From positions 1 through 53,253 of the forward strand of contig JABGQV010000048.1 of the NCBI GenBank assembly GCA_018648655.1: a stretch of DNA of 53,253 nucleotides. The letters are read 5' to 3'. Below, one piece after another: positions 16,985 to 24,956 of this stretch. Source of the stretch: Anaerolineae bacterium. Its GTDB lineage: Bacteria; Chloroflexota; Anaerolineae; Anaerolineales; Villigracilaceae. The notes under the pieces were generated by a model. The model did no database searches, was not told where the DNA came from, and worked only from the letters and a program-made list of their open reading frames with translations. Position 1 is the first letter of the stretch, and each line of letters begins with the position of its first letter. The position numbers and the translations under genes are program-made.

Positions 16985-17827
16985 TTATTCTGTCTTTGCT
17001 TTTTCTAGTGCTAAATTATAAACATATTCTAAGTTTTGTTGATGTAGTTCTGCGGAAAGCCCCCCAAGAATAATTCGACTTTTTCCACATTTTTCTACAT
17101 CTTGTTTGGCCAAATACTCCATGGGAGCTTTTCGGCGCATTGCGGTTTTGGCAGCTTTTTCTAGAATATTGAGATAATTGAGATTATCATCAATAGTAGG
17201 AGCAACCTCACCTCGAAGAATAACTTCTCCATGTCCCTGAACGATATTTTCTAAAGTCATTCCATGGAATTTCTCATAGGTGGCACGCATTTGGCCAATA
17301 TCACCATCGAGAAGATAGGGGATAGGCATTAAAACATCACCAGCAAAAAGAACACGATCTTCAACGACCAAAATGGCAATGCCGTCTTCGCTATGACCAG
17401 GAGCAGCCATAATTTTTAAGTGTTTTTTGCCAATCGTCAATGTCAGCTCGCCATCGTCAAGGGTTATATGTGGCAAGACAATTCTAACGTTTTTCAGGCC
17501 AGGATTATATTTTTTAGCTTCTTTTAGCGCTGGGATACCACGTTCTATTAATAAATCTCGGCAACGAGCATGTGCAATAATCGTCGCATCTGGAAAAAAA
17601 TAATTTCCCCAAGCGTGGTCAGCGTGATAGTGCGTATTAATAATATAGCGAATTTTTGTTTGGAGATGTCGCTCAACATAATCACGAATTTCCATAGCTT
17701 CTTCAGGCAAAGCTAGGGTGTCAATTAAAACAGACCATTTGGGTCCAACAATAACACCTGCTGTAACCTGTGCATAAACATTACTTTGGAACCAATAAAC
17801 ATTATCAGAAACACGTTCTCGATGCAT
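16985..17827 (-). CDS. MBL-fold metallo-hydrolase
   Basis: This 280-residue protein has the zinc-binding motif THYHADHAWGN after the 'VLIDTLA' strand, then AAPGHSEDGIA and LFAGDVLMPIPY, with IVQGHGEVI providing the last histidine. This is the glyoxalase II/B3-like branch of the metallo-beta-lactamase superfamily, with two likely metal sites. No signal peptide is present, so it is cytoplasmic. It differs clearly from the MBL protein at 4012. A 100-residue helical C-terminal extension follows the core. It is divergent from the regulator at 17958. Substrate not predictable. Confidence 0.8.
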   Translation of the reverse strand: MHRERVSDNVYWFQSNVYAQVTAGVIVGPKWSVLIDTLALPEEAMEIRDYVERHLQTKIRYIINTHYHADHAWGNYFFPDATIIAHARCRDLLIERGIPALKEAKKYNPGLKNVRIVLPHITLDDGELTLTIGKKHLKIMAAPGHSEDGIAILVVEDRVLFAGDVLMPIPYLLDGDIGQMRATYEKFHGMTLENIVQGHGEVILRGEVAPTIDDNLNYLNILEKAAKTAMRRKAPMEYLAKQDVEKCGKSRIILGGLSAELHQQNLEYVYNLALEKAKTE

Positions 17828-17918
17828 TAAATAACCTCACAAATTAGTTTTCCTAATTGATAGCATAAAGAGTACCTAAAAGTCAAGGTGAGTTTCTCTA
17901 TTCCCCCTACCGACATGC

Positions 17919-17947
17919 TTGATTCTACACCTCTCGCATGATAAAAT
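17919..17947 (+). promoter_or_regulatory. Promoter giving an almost leaderless transcript
   Basis: TTGATT (17919-17924), a 17-bp spacer, and TGATAAAAT with the -10 box TAAAAT at 17942-17947. Transcription should begin near 17954, only about 4 nt before the ATG at 17958. No Shine-Dalgarno sequence is present. Confidence 0.6.
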
Positions 17948-17957
17948 TTTATTTACA

Positions 17958-19697
17958 ATGTCATTCTCTCTGCTTGTCGTCACCCCACAGCCTAGTTTTG
18001 GAGAGCATATTCGCCAAAGTCTAGAAGAAAGCAATTCAGCAACGGTTGATATTGTGGATGGTATTGTTGCAGCTCTATATGCAGCAGAAGCACAGAAATT
18101 TACACATGCTTTTTTAGATATGGATATAAAAAGCGGCTCGGTTCTTGACCTTGGGCTTGCTTTGCGAAAATTAGACCCAGATTTGCGCCTTGTCATTGTC
18201 TCCCCGCGCCAAAGCATCCCGCGCTTTGACGCCCTCCGCCCTTGGAGTTTGCTAAATAAACCCTTCTATATCCCCGACCTTCTTCGTGTTTTAGATCAAA
18301 ACACAAAATCATCTTTATCCCTTTCGCCTGTGCAAAATAAAAAAGAGCCCAAAATGGAATTTAAAACTGGAAGTAACACAAAAACATTTGCTTGGTTAAA
18401 AGATGTTAGCAAAGCCGCTCAACATCTTACTCGTCTAACCTTAGAATCATCAGCTCAAGCCACGCTAATTATCCGCGACGGTGAATTGTGGGCTTATGCT
18501 GGCCAGCTTTTAGAAGAAGCTTCAGCTGAATTGGTGAAAATAGTTGCCCGAGACAAAAAAGCGGGAGACCTTCTTAAATTCCTTCGCCTCAATGCTACTC
18601 AAGCGGAGCATATGCTGTATGCTACAAAGTTGGCAGAAGAAACAGCACTTGTAATGGTTTTTGATGCTGAAACACCCTTTAGCGCAATTCGACAACAAGC
18701 TGCTCATCTTTCAGAATCTCTAGCAATGTCGTTAAAGGCATCCCCTTCAATACCATCTATTGAAGAAGTAGCTCGAGAAGAAAGCTCAGCCGAAAAAGAA
18801 GATAAAGACCTCATTGATCTTTTCGAGTTCGGTGATGATGAGAATGATAATTACCCACCTATTTCGGATATCTTAGAAAATATCCCCAATCCTAACCCTA
18901 TGAGCGCGGCATCTGAAATTAAAACATCTGCACCGGTTAGTACCCCTAGTCCAAATGTCCCACAAAGCTCGGTATTTGACGAACCAATGCCCAACCCCTT
19001 TGCAAGTTTAGAAGCGCGTTCTCGAAATGTTGTAGCCTCAGTGCGTGAAGAATCGCCAGCTATTAGAGAAGATGATTATTTTCAAGCGCATCAAGAAGCA
19101 CAAAACGACCTTGCTGAAACGCGTGTCCAAGAAGCGCGCCCTCAAGAAAGCCCTGAGACTGATTTAAATCTAACTCGTGTATCAAAACCTCTGCGTCCCG
19201 AAACGCCAGTGCGTAAACCAAAACCGGATGAATTAGTAGAAACGCGCCCACGCTCTATAACAGAAGTTGCGGGGCGAGTAATTCTTGAGAACTCCTCCTC
19301 TGGCATGTATGATTTGACCTATGCTTGTTTACTTGTGCCGCGCTTTGGAACACACTATCTCACAGGTGATCTTTCTGAAGAAATCTCTAAATGGATGCCT
19401 GATATTTGTATTGCATTTGGGTGGCGCTTAGAATTCCTTTCTATACGTCCTGATTATTTACAATGGGTTGTTAATGTTCCGCCGACCACATCACCAGGCT
19501 ATTTGATGCGCATTATGCGAAAACAAACATCAGAGAAAATTTTTAGAGATTTCCCCCGCCAAAAAGATAAAAATCCCTCTGGTGATTTTTGGGCCCCGGG
19601 TTATCTTATTATGGGCGGGAGCCAACCGCACCCTTCTAAGCTGGTTAAAGACTATATAAATCGCACTCGTTTGCGCCAAGGCACGGGAAAATATTAA
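17958..19697 (+). CDS. Pseudo-receiver / roadblock-like / degenerate Y1 transposase fusion protein
   Basis: The 579-residue protein has three recognisable parts. Residues 1-115 resemble a response-regulator receiver: FLDMD gives D54 at the phosphorylation position and NKPF gives K101. The usual acidic pair after the first strand is replaced (VVTPQP), so magnesium binding is doubtful. Residues about 125-245 resemble a roadblock/LC7 domain (ATLIIRDGELWAYAG, TALVMVFD). A long Pro/Glu-rich linker follows. The last 130 residues align with IS200/IS605 TnpA: YDLTYACLLVPRF, GWRLEFLSIRPDYLQWVV, FWAPGYLIMGG and VKDYINRTR. The HUH histidines are replaced by Y500-L501-Q502, while Y566 sits at the nucleophile position. 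I infer a domesticated DNA-binding regulator. I start at ATG 17958; the upstream TTG at 17919 overlaps the -35 box. Confidence 0.75.
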   Translation: MSFSLLVVTPQPSFGEHIRQSLEESNSATVDIVDGIVAALYAAEAQKFTHAFLDMDIKSGSVLDLGLALRKLDPDLRLVIVSPRQSIPRFDALRPWSLLNKPFYIPDLLRVLDQNTKSSLSLSPVQNKKEPKMEFKTGSNTKTFAWLKDVSKAAQHLTRLTLESSAQATLIIRDGELWAYAGQLLEEASAELVKIVARDKKAGDLLKFLRLNATQAEHMLYATKLAEETALVMVFDAETPFSAIRQQAAHLSESLAMSLKASPSIPSIEEVAREESSAEKEDKDLIDLFEFGDDENDNYPPISDILENIPNPNPMSAASEIKTSAPVSTPSPNVPQSSVFDEPMPNPFASLEARSRNVVASVREESPAIREDDYFQAHQEAQNDLAETRVQEARPQESPETDLNLTRVSKPLRPETPVRKPKPDELVETRPRSITEVAGRVILENSSSGMYDLTYACLLVPRFGTHYLTGDLSEEISKWMPDICIAFGWRLEFLSIRPDYLQWVVNVPPTTSPGYLMRIMRKQTSEKIFRDFPRQKDKNPSGDFWAPGYLIMGGSQPHPSKLVKDYINRTRLRQGTGKY

Positions 19698-19764
19698 GCT
19701 GCTAGACTTTCCCTTTTTACCATATTTTTAACCCTTAGCTCAACTTTTAAAATCTAAATACCCA

Positions 19765-22548
19765 ATGCCCCCAACCCTTTATTTAATTGACGGACACGCC
19801 CTTGCCTATCGTTCATATTTTGCGCTGAGTGCAGGTAACCCAGATCGCTGGAAAACTGCCTCAGGTGAACCCACAGGTGGAATTTACGGTTTCGCCAGCA
19901 TAATTTTGCGTCTTCTCGAAAACGACAAGCCCGACTATATGGTAGTTGCCTTTGATGTGGGGAAAACTTTTCGGCATGAAATGTATCCAGAATATAAAGG
20001 CACACGCGCCAAAATGCCCGATGATCTTCGCCCGCAAATTGAGCGTATTCGAGAAATGGTCGATATCTTCAATTTGCCACGTGTAGAGATGGAAGGTTTC
20101 GAAGCTGATGATGTATTAGGTAGCCTTGCTCGTCAAGCTGCAGAGCAAGGTTTGGGTGTGAAAATCATTACTGGTGACCGTGACCTACTTCAACTTGTAG
20201 ATGAACGTGTCATTGTTAATTTGCCCGGTCGCTCAATGAGCGATGCCCGTGATTATTATCCTGACGATGTTGTCAAAAAACTTGGCGTACGACCTGACCA
20301 AGTTGTTGATATGAAGGCCCTCATGGGAGATAAGTCAGATAATATCCCCGGAATCTACGGGATTGGGGAGAAAACGGCTCAAAAATTGCTCGCTCAATTT
20401 GAAACCCTCGATGGTATTTATGAAAATCTGGATGAAGTATCGGGACGTTTCAAGAGTAAGCTTGATGGCGGTAAAGAAGCCGCTTACCTGAGCCGAGACT
20501 TGGCACGCATTCACACCGACTTGAACGTGAGTCTTGATCTTGAACATGCGACCGCTAGTGAATTGGATGTGCCAGCAATAACCGAACTTTTCCGTGAACT
20601 TGAATTTCACACCCTTATTAATCGTGTAAATAAGCTGACGAAAAACTCTCTTTCTGATGCGTCTTCAGCCAGTGGGGGCCAACTTTCGCTCTTTGGTGGT
20701 GGGAAGGGGGCAGCAAAGATGTCTACGCCGAATCAGCCTGTCTCCATAAGCACTCAAGTTGTAGACACGCATGAGGCGTTAATCGCATTAGCAAAAAAAC
20801 TAGAGACTGCAAAAATAATCGCATTGGATACAGAGACGACATCCACAGATGAGATGCAAGCTAATTTAGTTGGAATTTCTCTTGCGGTTGAAGTGGGTGA
20901 AGGCTTTTATATCCCAACAGGTCATAATGATGGCAAACAGCTGGCCATAGATGAAGTGCTAGATGCTTTGCGCCCTGCATTGACGAATCTTGATATTCAA
21001 AAAATTGGACATAATCTAAAATACGACATTATTATGCTGGCCCGTTATGGCTTGCAGGTTACACCGCTTTCTTTTGACACAATGATTGCTGAATGGTTGA
21101 TTGATCCAGCATCGCGGAATTTGGGCTTGAAAAAATTGGCATTTGTGCGCTTAGGTGAGCAAATGATTGAAATTGAAGCCCTGATTGGGAAGGGGAAAAA
21201 CCAGATCAGTATGGCAGAAGTGGCAATTGCCGATGCCGCTCCTTATGCCGCCGCAGATGCAGAAATTTGTTTGCAACTTTACCCCCTTTTGATGAAAGAC
21301 TTATTGCGAGCCGATGCGCTAAAATTACTTGAAGAGATAGAAATGCCGCTTGTTGGTGTTTTAGCAGAAATGGAAATGGCGGGTATTTTGCTCGACATTC
21401 CTTTCTTTGAAGAGTTTTCGGTAGAGTTAGCAATACGTTTAGCAGAAATAGATAAAGAAGTAATTGACTTGGCTGGGAAGGCCTTTAATCTTAACTCTAC
21501 GCAACAGCTTTCAGATGTACTTTTCAATAAATTGGGCTTAGAGCCACCAACCCGTACACGAAAAACAAAAAGTGGTCATTATTCAACTTCTGCTTCTGTG
21601 TTAGAGGGGATGCGAGGCAATCATCCTATTATTGATTTGATTTTAGAAAATCGTGAACTTTCTAAATTAAAATCAACTTATGTAGATGCTTTACCAGCAG
21701 CGCTTAACCCCAAAACAGGGCGTGTGCATACTTCTTTCAACCAAACAGGTTCGGTGACTGGGCGTTTGGCTTCATCTAATCCTAATTTGCAAAATATCCC
21801 AATTCGTTCAGAGTTGGGCCGGCGTGTACGCAGAGGTTTTATTGCTGATAAGGGGAATCTTTTATTGGCAATTGATTATTCGCAAATTGAATTGCGGATT
21901 GTCGCGCATATGGCGCAAGACAAAACGATGTTGGCTGCTTTTAATTCTGGGCAAGATATTCACACCACAACAGCGGCAGGAATTTATAGCGTTGAGCCTA
22001 TAGAAGTGACTAAAGATATGCGGCGTGATGCGAAGGCCGTCAACTTTGGTTTGATATATGGTATGTCTGCCTTTGGGTTAACACGCTCTACTGAATTGAC
22101 TTTAGCGGAAGCAGAAGACTTTGTAGCTGCTTATTTCGCAGAATTTCCTGGTGTGAAGCGATATTTGGATAGTATTCGCAATATTGCCGCAGATCAGGGT
22201 TATGTAGAAACTTTGTTGGGCAGGCGAAGATATTTCCCCGCGCTGAAGAACCCTACAAATAATCAACACCGTAGAAATTCAGAGCGCGCGGCTATCAATG
22301 CCCCTATTCAAGGGACTGCTGCAGATATTATGAAAATTGCCATGTTAGATGTGGCAAAAACTCTCAAAAATGCAGATGTTCGGGCAAAAGTACTTTTACA
22401 AGTTCACGATGAAGTTGTAATAGAATGCCCTGAAAGTGAACTAGGGCTTATAATCAAGTTGGTAACTAAGGCAATGGAAAGCGCTTATTCGTTGGATATA
22501 CCCCTAACTACTGAAGCCCGCTCAGGGTTGCGGTGGGGTGATTTGTAG
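19765..22548 (+). CDS. polA: DNA polymerase I
   Basis: This 927-residue protein has all three Pol I domains. The N-terminal 5'-3' exonuclease (1-300) shows LIDGHALAYRSYFA, FEADDVLGSLA, TGDRDLLQLV and MGDKSDNIPGI. The 3'-5' proofreading domain (about 320-500) keeps its catalytic acids (ALDTETTSTDE and HNLKYDI), so proofreading should work. The polymerase domain shows NLQNIPIRSELGRRVRRGF, DYSQIELRI, RRDAKAVNFGLIYGMSAFGL and QVHDEVVIE. It fills gaps in repair and removes RNA primers. The ATG at 19765 has no Shine-Dalgarno; a TAAAAT box at 19748 suggests a leader of about 5 nt. It follows the transposase-like regulator by 67 bp. Confidence 0.96.
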   Translation: MPPTLYLIDGHALAYRSYFALSAGNPDRWKTASGEPTGGIYGFASIILRLLENDKPDYMVVAFDVGKTFRHEMYPEYKGTRAKMPDDLRPQIERIREMVDIFNLPRVEMEGFEADDVLGSLARQAAEQGLGVKIITGDRDLLQLVDERVIVNLPGRSMSDARDYYPDDVVKKLGVRPDQVVDMKALMGDKSDNIPGIYGIGEKTAQKLLAQFETLDGIYENLDEVSGRFKSKLDGGKEAAYLSRDLARIHTDLNVSLDLEHATASELDVPAITELFRELEFHTLINRVNKLTKNSLSDASSASGGQLSLFGGGKGAAKMSTPNQPVSISTQVVDTHEALIALAKKLETAKIIALDTETTSTDEMQANLVGISLAVEVGEGFYIPTGHNDGKQLAIDEVLDALRPALTNLDIQKIGHNLKYDIIMLARYGLQVTPLSFDTMIAEWLIDPASRNLGLKKLAFVRLGEQMIEIEALIGKGKNQISMAEVAIADAAPYAAADAEICLQLYPLLMKDLLRADALKLLEEIEMPLVGVLAEMEMAGILLDIPFFEEFSVELAIRLAEIDKEVIDLAGKAFNLNSTQQLSDVLFNKLGLEPPTRTRKTKSGHYSTSASVLEGMRGNHPIIDLILENRELSKLKSTYVDALPAALNPKTGRVHTSFNQTGSVTGRLASSNPNLQNIPIRSELGRRVRRGFIADKGNLLLAIDYSQIELRIVAHMAQDKTMLAAFNSGQDIHTTTAAGIYSVEPIEVTKDMRRDAKAVNFGLIYGMSAFGLTRSTELTLAEAEDFVAAYFAEFPGVKRYLDSIRNIAADQGYVETLLGRRRYFPALKNPTNNQHRRNSERAAINAPIQGTAADIMKIAMLDVAKTLKNADVRAKVLLQVHDEVVIECPESELGLIIKLVTKAMESAYSLDIPLTTEARSGLRWGDL

Positions 22549-22640: not shown

Positions 22641-24956
22641 ATGGTAGAAGAAAACAAAGGCTTTCAGAAAGCAATGAGTGATGGTCATTCAGCTGCATGG
22701 GATCAATTATGGGAAAAAGCCGCTGCGTCTTATCGTGATGCACTGACGGAAGTTCCAGATAATCCTAAGGCACTTTCTAGTTTGGCTTTAGCTTTATATC
22801 AACTGCAAAACTATAACGAAGCTTTAGTAGCTTACGTGAATTTAGCAAAAATCACGCCTAGCGACCCTGTTCCCTATGAAAAAATCGCACAATTATCAGA
22901 GCGAATGGGATCTATCAAAGAAGCGGTCATTGCTGCAACTAACGCAGCTGACTTATATCTCAACCAAAAAGATGTTAATAAAGCAATCGAAAACTGGTCA
23001 CGTGTTACTCAGCTTGCTCCTGAGAATGTCTTAGCCCACTCTCGTCTTGCTTTGGTTCATGAGCGTTTAGGGCATCGAGAGCGTGCGGTCACTGAGTATC
23101 TTGCTCTCGCTAGCTTAATGCAGCGTTCAGGAAAAAATGAAAAAGCGACTGGTTTTTTAGCGCGGGCTTTGAAAATTTTGCCAGGCAATCAGGCAGCACA
23201 ACAGGCACAAGCTTTGCTAAGTAGCGGACAGCTTTTGCCTAAACCCGTCCGGCCAAAGGGTGGTACAGGTCCATTACGAATGGCGCAAGTGAAAGAATTA
23301 AATAAACCTAAAGAAAAAATAACAAGTAGCCTTGATCCTATTCAAGAAGCTAGCAAAAAATCTCTAATGGTGTTAGCTGAAATTCTTTTTGAATACTCTG
23401 ACGAGGGCGGTGAAGAAAAAGTGCGTAAAGGTTTGCAGGCTATTATGCATGGAACAGCACATCTTTCATTAAAAAAGATGGAGCAAACAAAAGTCATTCT
23501 TCATTTGGGACAGGCAATTGATGCGCAATCTAAAAACCAAAATGAGCTTGCAGCCGATGAATTAGCGCACGCTCTTCTAGCGGGATTTGAACACCCAGCT
23601 CTTTACTTCGATTTGGGGATGCTGAGGACAAAGGGAGAGCGATACGAGAGCGCGCTTCCGCACCTTCAACATGCGATATCACACGTGGATTTTGGGCTTG
23701 CTGCGCGATTGTTGGCAGGGCAAAACCTTCGGCATTTGGGGCGCACTCCCGAAGCAGCCACCGAATACCTCGAGGCTTTAAAAATCGCAGATGTTAAGTT
23801 GGCCCCTGAAGACCAAGTAGCTTCCCTTCGGCAGCTTTATGAGCCGCTAATCGAGGCTCAATCACAAGAAGAAGATGAAAAAGCGCATTTACGCCTTTGT
23901 GATAATGTTGAAGAAATGCTCGTGCGAGAAAATTGGCGTGAACATCTGTTGGATTCTCGTAAAGAACTCCCCAAATCAGATGGTGAAATGCTTTTGCCTT
24001 TAGCTGAAATATTGATTCAGGCACAAAGCAGTGAGGTTTTGGGCGCAATGACTAGTGTCCACGAGTTGGCACGTTTAGGACGAATGCGGTCAGCGATGGA
24101 TGCGGCTTTTCAAGCAATTATATATGCGCCAACCTATCTTCCCCTTCACTCTTTAATTGGCGACCTTCTTGTTAAAGAAGACCGTAAAGATGAAGCCATT
24201 GCAAAATATAACGTAGTTGCAGAAGCCTATGGCATTCGTGGTGAAGCGCATCAATCTACAGTCTTTTTGCGCAAGATAATTCAACTTGCCCCCATGAATC
24301 TTTCTTCTCGAACAAAACTCATAGACCAATTAACTGCACGTGGTCAAATCGATGATGCGATTCAAGAATATCTAAATTTGGCTGATATTTATTATCGCTT
24401 AGCCGAGCTAGATATGGCGCGAAAAACCTATACGACTGCGTTACGAGCAGCACAACAAGGTGGAGCGGAAGGCTCATGGAATGTACATATTTTGCAGCGT
24501 ATGGCAGATATTGATATGCAGCGTCTTGATTGGAAGCGCGCAGTTAGAGTTTTTGAACAGCTTCGCACTCTTGTTCCAGGTGATAATGATGCACGCATAA
24601 ATCTGATTGACCTAAATTTGAAACTTGCTAATAAATCACAAGCTATAAATGAATTGGATAACTATTTGAGTTATTTAGATGAAAACTCTATAGAAAGTAG
24701 TGACCCTATTGCTTTATTAGAAGATTTAATTGATACGCATTCATCAGTTGCTCAATTACACCGTGCGCTTGCTGGGCAATATCTTAAGATTGAGAAGAGA
24801 GATGAAGCAGTTAAATCTTATGATCTTGCAGCGGAGATATTCTTAGAAACAGGGGATACTGAAGAAGCAATTCAGACCATTACAAGTCTTTTGCATATGA
24901 AGCCAGATAATGAAGATGAATACCGCCAAGTTTTGGCAGAAATTCAGGCGAGCTGA
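22641..24956 (+). CDS. Large tetratricopeptide-repeat protein
   Basis: This 771-residue soluble protein is built almost entirely of TPR-like helix pairs. Examples are NPKALSSLALALYQLQNYNEAL near the start, ENVLAHSRLALVHERLGHRE near 130, and the series between 500 and 770 ending in DNEDEYRQVLAEI. A less regular section (about 210-330) links the two TPR blocks. There is no signal peptide or catalytic motif, so it is likely a cytoplasmic scaffold for protein-protein contacts. It follows polA by 92 bp, with its own weak leader and a strong terminator at 24986. Partners are unknown. Confidence 0.85.
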   Translation: MVEENKGFQKAMSDGHSAAWDQLWEKAAASYRDALTEVPDNPKALSSLALALYQLQNYNEALVAYVNLAKITPSDPVPYEKIAQLSERMGSIKEAVIAATNAADLYLNQKDVNKAIENWSRVTQLAPENVLAHSRLALVHERLGHRERAVTEYLALASLMQRSGKNEKATGFLARALKILPGNQAAQQAQALLSSGQLLPKPVRPKGGTGPLRMAQVKELNKPKEKITSSLDPIQEASKKSLMVLAEILFEYSDEGGEEKVRKGLQAIMHGTAHLSLKKMEQTKVILHLGQAIDAQSKNQNELAADELAHALLAGFEHPALYFDLGMLRTKGERYESALPHLQHAISHVDFGLAARLLAGQNLRHLGRTPEAATEYLEALKIADVKLAPEDQVASLRQLYEPLIEAQSQEEDEKAHLRLCDNVEEMLVRENWREHLLDSRKELPKSDGEMLLPLAEILIQAQSSEVLGAMTSVHELARLGRMRSAMDAAFQAIIYAPTYLPLHSLIGDLLVKEDRKDEAIAKYNVVAEAYGIRGEAHQSTVFLRKIIQLAPMNLSSRTKLIDQLTARGQIDDAIQEYLNLADIYYRLAELDMARKTYTTALRAAQQGGAEGSWNVHILQRMADIDMQRLDWKRAVRVFEQLRTLVPGDNDARINLIDLNLKLANKSQAINELDNYLSYLDENSIESSDPIALLEDLIDTHSSVAQLHRALAGQYLKIEKRDEAVKSYDLAAEIFLETGDTEEAIQTITSLLHMKPDNEDEYRQVLAEIQAS

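Follow-up and report, generated by a model that had tools for sequence, protein, structure and literature searches.

The window analyzed here, a whole stretch of 53,253 nucleotides from an Anaerolineae bacterium, contains a gene (17958..19697, forward strand; an ORF of 579 aa) that codes for a protein composed of a pseudo-receiver, a roadblock domain, a Pro/Glu linker and a catalytically dead Y1 transposase (TnpA) domain. This three-part gene belongs to the host and is not mobile: it is the first of a conserved polA cluster in Anaerolineales. Its predicted fold, missing catalytic residues, conservation, synteny and co-inheritance with polA are shown by the analysis. A preliminary description of the window had proposed a transposase turned into a regulator. 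Homologues, fold, synteny and tree all give strong support to a domesticated, non-catalytic Y1 domain fused with a pseudo-receiver and a roadblock domain; the regulatory role is put forward below as a proposal. The gene offers a testable case of the conversion of a transposase into a regulator, and may feed a signal into DNA polymerase I.

The C-terminal domain (residues 446-569, 19293..19664, forward strand) is matched by the Pfam model Y1_Tnp over residues 451-569 (E 3.3e-13, 50.2 bits, cut-off 23) and by the NCBIfam model transpos_IS200 over residues 446-568 (59.9 bits, cut-off 55). An AlphaFold2 model of residues 440-579, built with 60 aligned sequences, reached a mean pLDDT of 92.1 and a pTM of 0.84. 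The preliminary description had suggested comparing this segment with known transposases, and the comparison found the TnpA likeness: the best structural match is 2ec2 (Z 16.3, rmsd 1.8 over 109 residues), followed by 2fyx (Z 16.1), the ISDra2 TnpA (2xo6, Z 16.1) and the IS608 TnpA (2vju, Z 15.1), and the REP transposase 4er8 (Z 8.3) falls below the TnpA matches. Profiles and structural matches (Z 15.1-16.3) therefore agree that the C-terminus is an IS200/IS605 TnpA, as had been read from the sequence. The NCBIfam model also matches all 45 members of one alignment (A3) at E 0.001 or better, although its cut-off was compared for the window protein alone; because of these fits, automatic annotation will probably label such dead-Y1 genes as transposases.

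Homologues were collected as a set of 153 distinct ORFs, once identical and contained ones had been removed; L028 and L031 were dropped as duplicates. This set comprises 114 ORFs that match both the N-terminal part and the Y1 domain, 14 with Y1 only and 25 with the N-terminal part only. Eight of the 114 lack a receiver match (L027, L035, L036, L057, L177, L185, L211 and L215), and for some of them the locus or contig ends there.

In IS200/IS605 enzymes the metal is bound by two histidines and by a residue located about four positions after the tyrosine (Q131 in IS608), according to the accessible part of PMC6006769. At the His-u-His place the window protein carries Y500-L501-Q502 (19455..19463, forward strand), and none of the 114 homologues has His at both 500 and 502. 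The replacement, already noted in the preliminary description, is itself conserved: Y stands at position 500 in 105 ORFs, against F or H in three each, C in two and A in one, and Q502 is found in 105 of the 114. Position 570, the place of the third metal ligand, is T in the window protein and in 92/114 homologues, and Q in only four. Judged by sequence, then, all three metal ligands of the domain are lost, so it should no longer cut single-stranded DNA by the HUH reaction, and it almost certainly performs no such cleavage. The tyrosine that had been noted at the nucleophile place, Y566 (19653..19655, forward strand), is indeed present in the window protein; it is not conserved, since the position is Y in 87 of the 114 ORFs, F in 27 and nothing else. 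Its context, Y566-I-N-R-T570, also differs from the Y---NP of TnpA-REP proteins. Other residues are nearly invariant: R571 is found in 114/114 ORFs, and W489 and W545 in 113 each.

The N-terminal module was modeled as residues 1-259 (pLDDT 87.5, pTM 0.51), a prediction in which the receiver and roadblock domains are each well defined and their mutual placement is not. The receiver-like domain (residues 1-118, 17958..18311, forward strand) has the receiver fold (best Z 18.4, rmsd 1.6, 115 residues aligned in the structure search), with T9-P10 in place of the acidic pair that holds Mg2+ and with D54 and K101 present, which bears out the earlier reading of a receiver-like domain without its acidic pair. 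T occupies position 9 in 84 of the 114 homologues, with S in 14 and D in four (nine gaps); D54 is kept in 104/114 (nine gaps) and K101 in 99/114 (eight gaps). Among N-only ORFs longer than 230 aa, some of which may be ordinary receivers, 19 of 23 have D at position 9. Since the acidic pair has been lost, ordinary phosphorylation of this domain appears doubtful, although the acceptor aspartate is kept. An antisense ORF (17876-18217) overlaps the receiver part of the gene, and in several genus pairs the synonymous distance of this part is apparently lower than that of the rest of the gene.

The roadblock domain (residues 145-257, 18390..18728, forward strand) had been described as a roadblock/LC7-like segment, and the assignment is backed by its fold: Foldseek matches it to the MglB structure 6izw_B (E 2.7e-7, rmsd 2.5, 121 columns), with no match of the Pfam roadblock model (Robl_LC7) in the window protein. 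Some MglB relatives fused to receivers are likewise said to escape the Pfam model in the accessible portion of PMC4316618. No cognate MglA-type GTPase was found among the four neighbours checked by Pfam, and a Ras/ATP_bind_1-type stretch is present elsewhere in the same genome.

The two halves of the protein are joined by the long Pro/Glu linker that had been noticed earlier (residues 263-445, 18744..19292, forward strand), whose length varies from 26 to 236 residues across the 114 homologues (median 146). Two short motifs recur in it. The first, PPISDILENIPNPNP in the window protein (residues 300-314, 18855..18899, forward strand), follows the strict pattern P.I..[IL][LM]...P.P.P in 66 of the 114 linkers and a looser pattern in 91; the second, REESPAI (residues 363-369, 19044..19064, forward strand), contains an SPA that is found in 67/114 linkers and is preceded by an E.. 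type context in 50/114. Both may be docking sites. A clamp-binding motif was considered and rejected, the pattern Q[LI][SDGA]LF being found in only one of the 114 linkers (L057).

Directly downstream lies polA (19765..22548, forward strand), which is the usual neighbour, and then a TPR protein gene (22641..24956, forward strand; TPR by Pfam) that is usually third in the cluster. The preliminary description had recommended an inspection of genomic neighbours, and polA does co-occur: 92 of the 111 testable ORFs with both parts (three of the 114 are untestable) have it less than 1 kb downstream on the same strand and four more within 6 kb, and 15/111 lack it in the downstream sequence available, which for some of them is only ~1.4-1.5 kb; in others, such as L141, L178, L186 and L189, there is no polA in 4.8-6 kb. 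The median gap is 112 nt (101 ORFs, all groups), measured from the last sense codon to the polA start extrapolated from the alignment. In a comparison of 41 larger loci, the window included, members of the polA cluster are found in 38 and the TPR gene cluster in 31. Some receiver-roadblock ORFs without Y1 (n=19) also precede polA, within 1 kb in seven, with computed gaps as small as -8 (L065), -8 (L066) and -1 nt (L206), although ten of the 17 testable ones have no polA within ~1.2-1.5 kb (two are untestable). The close cases suggest that the N-terminal module was perhaps tied to polA before Y1 was added, the alternative being that Y1 was lost there. In another family of the class (L211, L215), polA is preceded by a protein of ~1000 aa that combines a roadblock domain with a very divergent dead Y1 domain, which in L211 has FxY in place of HxH.

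The gene and polA have been inherited together. Their pairwise distances, calculated for 78 distinct loci out of 95, are correlated with a Mantel r of 0.901, and 1000 permutations reach a maximum of 0.285. This correlation shows shared descent and not shared function, and synteny and shared descent can mirror shared transcription or mere stability. As to constraint, the Y1 domain has a dN of 0.10-0.16 and polA one of 0.09-0.19 in eight genus relatives, Y1 being lower than polA in six of them and higher in two; dN was used because dS was saturated in many comparisons, which leaves dN/dS unreadable in them.

Matches to the protein, some of them partial, were found in 55 of 60 genomes of its own and other members of the genus, family and order. 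A wider search of 150 family genomes with an alignment of the paralogues (A5), which counts the domain and not the full protein, gave a dead-type Y1 match in 143 of them and in 86 of the 88 of good quality. A scan of the genome_contigs collection with the single protein found no relative there, and a scan with an alignment found 205, of which 80 were kept; most carry labels of Anaerolineales, Anaerolineae or Chloroflexi MAGs, with Candidatus Desulfolinea nitratireducens among them, and one record has a Herpetosiphon label. Across the phylum, an alignment of the roadblock part matched 25/301 genomes, of which 18 belong to the same family. When 58 Y1 domains were placed in a tree, a single branch (support 96/99) split 22 TnpA rows from 36 of dead type, the latter including other families of the class (L202, L211, L215). 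Its rows were a selection of 28 from the 114, the full set of 14 Y1-only ORFs and additional TnpA loci scoring above 25 bits, with L254, L228 and L231 left out as repeats; the tree is unrooted, takes its TnpAs from Anaerolineae only and has three long rows. Within these bounds the topology fits one old capture of a TnpA domain. The genome from which the window comes carries two other Y1 genes, one (G000:C56:1795-2157, L228) with an HVH motif (L002, L228) and one (G000:C86:25509-25844, L255) of 195 aa with HFH at the motif.

Upstream of the gene, a sigma-70-like scan located a promoter, TTGATT-N17-TAAAAT with a TG extension (17919..17947, forward strand), 10 nt before the ATG. As the scan yields seven such sites in the region when 4.8 are expected, conservation is the better evidence: an extended -10 close to the start codon is found in 93 of 101 homologues (mean 3.6 and maximum 10 in shuffled sequences), and a Shine-Dalgarno-like motif in only one. 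The comparison covered 101 of the 114 homologues, 104 having a mapped start and flank and three of these lacking a start codon. The gene has its own promoter beside polA, as had been proposed, and its transcript is likely to be near-leaderless. Extended -10 sites of the same sort precede 6/37 genes of the window, this one included, so the feature is not special to it. No conserved palindrome, operator or hairpin was seen upstream of the gene in nine genus members, and the hairpins between the gene and polA vary from genome to genome.

Dead Y1 domains, mostly standing alone, are also found outside the polA context. Thirty-two such loci were examined, with a Y1 ORF recovered in 30 (none in L303 and L305); L300 and L304 were left out of residue counts owing to poor alignment. 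Twenty-five of the loci come from among the matches listed for the family genomes, and are those with open frames shorter than 260 aa that the set did not yet contain. In 18 of the 30 (L052, L053, L054, L057, L062 and 13 of L283-L307), one of the two genes that follow on the same strand codes for an Mrr-type restriction endonuclease, and in all 18 the dead Y1 gene is upstream of it. The three nucleases tested by Pfam (L053, L062, L306) have Mrr_N and Mrr_cat, Mrr_N being below the cut-off in L062 and L306. After the nuclease gene there is often one whose product has a conserved N-terminus (with TPRs in the three longer members tested) and then one for a membrane sensor kinase (Pfam: L052, L307); this tail is present without Mrr in 2/30 loci. 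Nine others (L056, L291, L293, L294, L298, L299, L300, L301 and L304) have chemotaxis or motility surroundings, that is, MCP, DUF1521 or MotA clusters, in which one member each of MCP, DUF1521 and MotA was tested by Pfam and MotB, FlbD and CheW were named by eye. Only L286 falls outside these classes. The idea that the paralogues stand at the head of operons was weakened, since only 12 of the 30 loci have an upstream neighbour on the opposite strand; same-strand ORFs lie close upstream in others (for instance, 41 nt in L053 and 88 nt in L055). Two of the Mrr-linked loci keep more of the protein, L057 the roadblock and Y1 parts and L062 all three, which looks as if a duplicated gene had been reduced step by step. 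All 26 usable standalone domains have R571 and W489. One of these paralogues (L294) keeps His-Leu-His, with Phe at the nucleophile place, and is the sole HxH among the 26.

Two readings deny the protein a role as a non-catalytic host factor. The first, an IS200/IS605-type transposase or HUH nuclease that still works by means of odd catalytic residues, could appeal to the profiles, which still say transposase and exceed the NCBIfam cut-off, and to the Y566 kept in the window protein, but it has to face the absence of HxH from all 114 homologues, the absence of the tyrosine from 27, the co-inheritance with polA and a lack of visible ends. Between positions 17000 and 20200 an inverted-repeat scan picked up five short pairs (9-14 nt), none resembling paired transposon ends, in keeping with the earlier statement that none flank the gene. 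Neither of the findings that the preliminary description had named as contrary to its view, a C-terminus unlike TnpA or homologues with an intact HUH motif and transposon ends, was encountered. In plasmid and phage records, 14 plasmid and two phage matches to the Y1 part were found, all partial and TnpA-like, with none covering 80% of the query, and viral_contigs gave one weak relative (21% identity). Phage or plasmid cargo was discarded on these grounds, an active mobile element was ruled out by catalytic residues, synteny, co-inheritance and the lack of visible ends, and a defence gene was also set aside, neither the three-part protein nor the TPR protein having a PADLOC match. We regard a working enzyme as extremely improbable. 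Still closer to negligible is a decaying fusion or assembly artefact without function: the lost acidic pair of the receiver and the variable linker might speak for it, but the first 31 homologues listed hold 57-84% identity in the Y1 domain, dN in eight relatives is like that of polA, and the same architecture and neighbour recur in many genomes, so that purifying selection and repeated synteny make it very unlikely.

The other two readings differ in what the dead domain would bind, and lie within the interpretation of the protein as a non-catalytic regulator or scaffold. Residues were compared between 28 chosen dead domains and the 14 tabulated of 22 TnpA rows, in which His is present at 500 in 14/14 and at 502 in 13/14. 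H456 and R464, found in 14/14 TnpAs, where they may touch DNA, have been lost, the former being A in 19/28 and the latter P in 14/28 dead domains; K462 and K521, also in 14/14 TnpAs, are R or K in 28/28 and 21/28, respectively, and R518 is new in 19/28. From the 22 TnpA rows to the 28 dead domains, the median net charge drops from +7 to +2. Binding of hairpin DNA or RNA, as suggested in the preliminary description, thus has mixed sequence evidence, in which the loss of H456, R464 and charge stands against two positions that mostly stay basic, and nucleic-acid binding by the Y1 part appears to have somewhat less than an even chance. A regulator that binds DNA or hairpins and controls its own operon, having lost cutting and kept recognition, would agree with a gene that heads the polA cluster with its own promoter, with the position of the dead Y1 gene before the nuclease gene in every Mrr cluster and with the basic residues kept or gained, but not with the residues and charge lost, the lack of a palindrome conserved upstream in the genus or a presumed leader too short for a hairpin; we hold it to be possible, at clearly less than even prospects. 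A purely protein- or ligand-binding signalling domain, in which the old active site would be a new pocket and no nucleic acid would be contacted, could account for the newly conserved residues (W489 in 27, R490 in 24, P513 in 27 and R571 in all of the 28 dead domains) and for the paralogues beside genes for a sensor kinase, a chemotaxis receptor and motor proteins, although a DNA enzyme is present in two of the three contexts (PolA in one, Mrr in another) and two of the basic positions of TnpA mostly stay basic; it is likewise a tentative reading that falls short of even. As residues and charge give mixed evidence, DNA binding and protein or ligand binding are held as nearly equal rivals.

The explanation that we propose is that a receiver-roadblock protein would have gained a TnpA domain, which lost all three metal ligands, and that the whole protein acts as a regulator or scaffold without catalysis. 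Input would reach it at the pseudo-receiver and at the roadblock domain, for which the preliminary description had suggested a possible sensing role, through a partner protein or through dimerization, the two short linker motifs could dock partners, and the Y1 part, whose fold is kept and is dimeric in TnpA, would be the output, contacting a partner protein or a nucleic acid and possibly tuning the polA operon or Pol I. Taken as a whole, this explanation is about as probable as its negation. Against it count the 15 of 111 testable homologues without polA in the downstream sequence available, the ten of 17 Y1-less ORFs without it nearby, the loss of H456 and R464 and the drop in charge, which speak against hairpin binding of the TnpA type, and the lack of any conserved palindrome around the promoter in nine members of the genus. 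Some functional link between the three-part protein and Pol I is rather probable. Although its chemistry is gone, the domain shows constraint similar to that of polA within the genus and turns up repeatedly in the order, so the fold itself must do something. A broader proposal, in which Anaerolineales use the transposase fold as a general output domain without catalysis, in three or more kinds of cluster (polA; Mrr and sensor kinase; motility and chemotaxis), and in which the full protein links a signal to DNA polymerase I, seems only just short of an even prospect, and there is a fair chance that the dead Y1 part defines a new regulatory domain.

The three-part protein has relatives among known systems. 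With the TnpA proteins of IS200/IS605 elements (IS608, ISDra2) it shares the Y1 fold and profile, but its family lacks the His-u-His motif and the third ligand, may replace the tyrosine by phenylalanine, is fused to a signalling-type module and gives no sign of mobility. TldR proteins are catalytically dead, RNA-guided regulators derived from TnpB, and so are a case of a protein of the same IS superfamily turned regulator; they differ in being TnpB-derived and RNA-guided, whereas the window protein derives from TnpA. In TnpA-REP (RAYT) proteins, called domesticated transposases in the accessible part of PMC8266576, a Y1 domain has likewise been kept by the host. The window family differs from them in having no HuH motif, in the T570 that stands instead of the Y---NP context and in the lack of REP-like palindromes in the nearby region scanned (17000-20200). 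As far as PMC6006769 is accessible, it treats TnpA-REP members with HuH and Y as functional, and its tree includes only sequences with both (722/924). Proteins of unexpected length, fusions among them, were discarded there, and a family of dead-Y1 fusions would accordingly have been excluded. Fusions of Response_reg and Robl_LC7 (MglB) domains were already known (PMC4316618) and have an N-terminal receiver and roadblock as in the window protein, which adds a dead Y1 domain and the linkage to polA, neither of them mentioned in the accessible portion of that paper. The accessible part of a review of exaptation (PMC8987985) has no such TnpA case, and a literature search that left most subscription journals and all preprints outside its reach turned up neither a dead TnpA regulator nor an account of its link to polA, in line with the earlier remark that no described system was known to have this set of domains. 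In these sources, to the extent that they are accessible, domesticated Y1 transposases are taken to keep their cutting chemistry, the residues for which are gone here. Exapted transposases as such are already known, and what is new in this family is an exapted transposase that has lost its catalytic residues.
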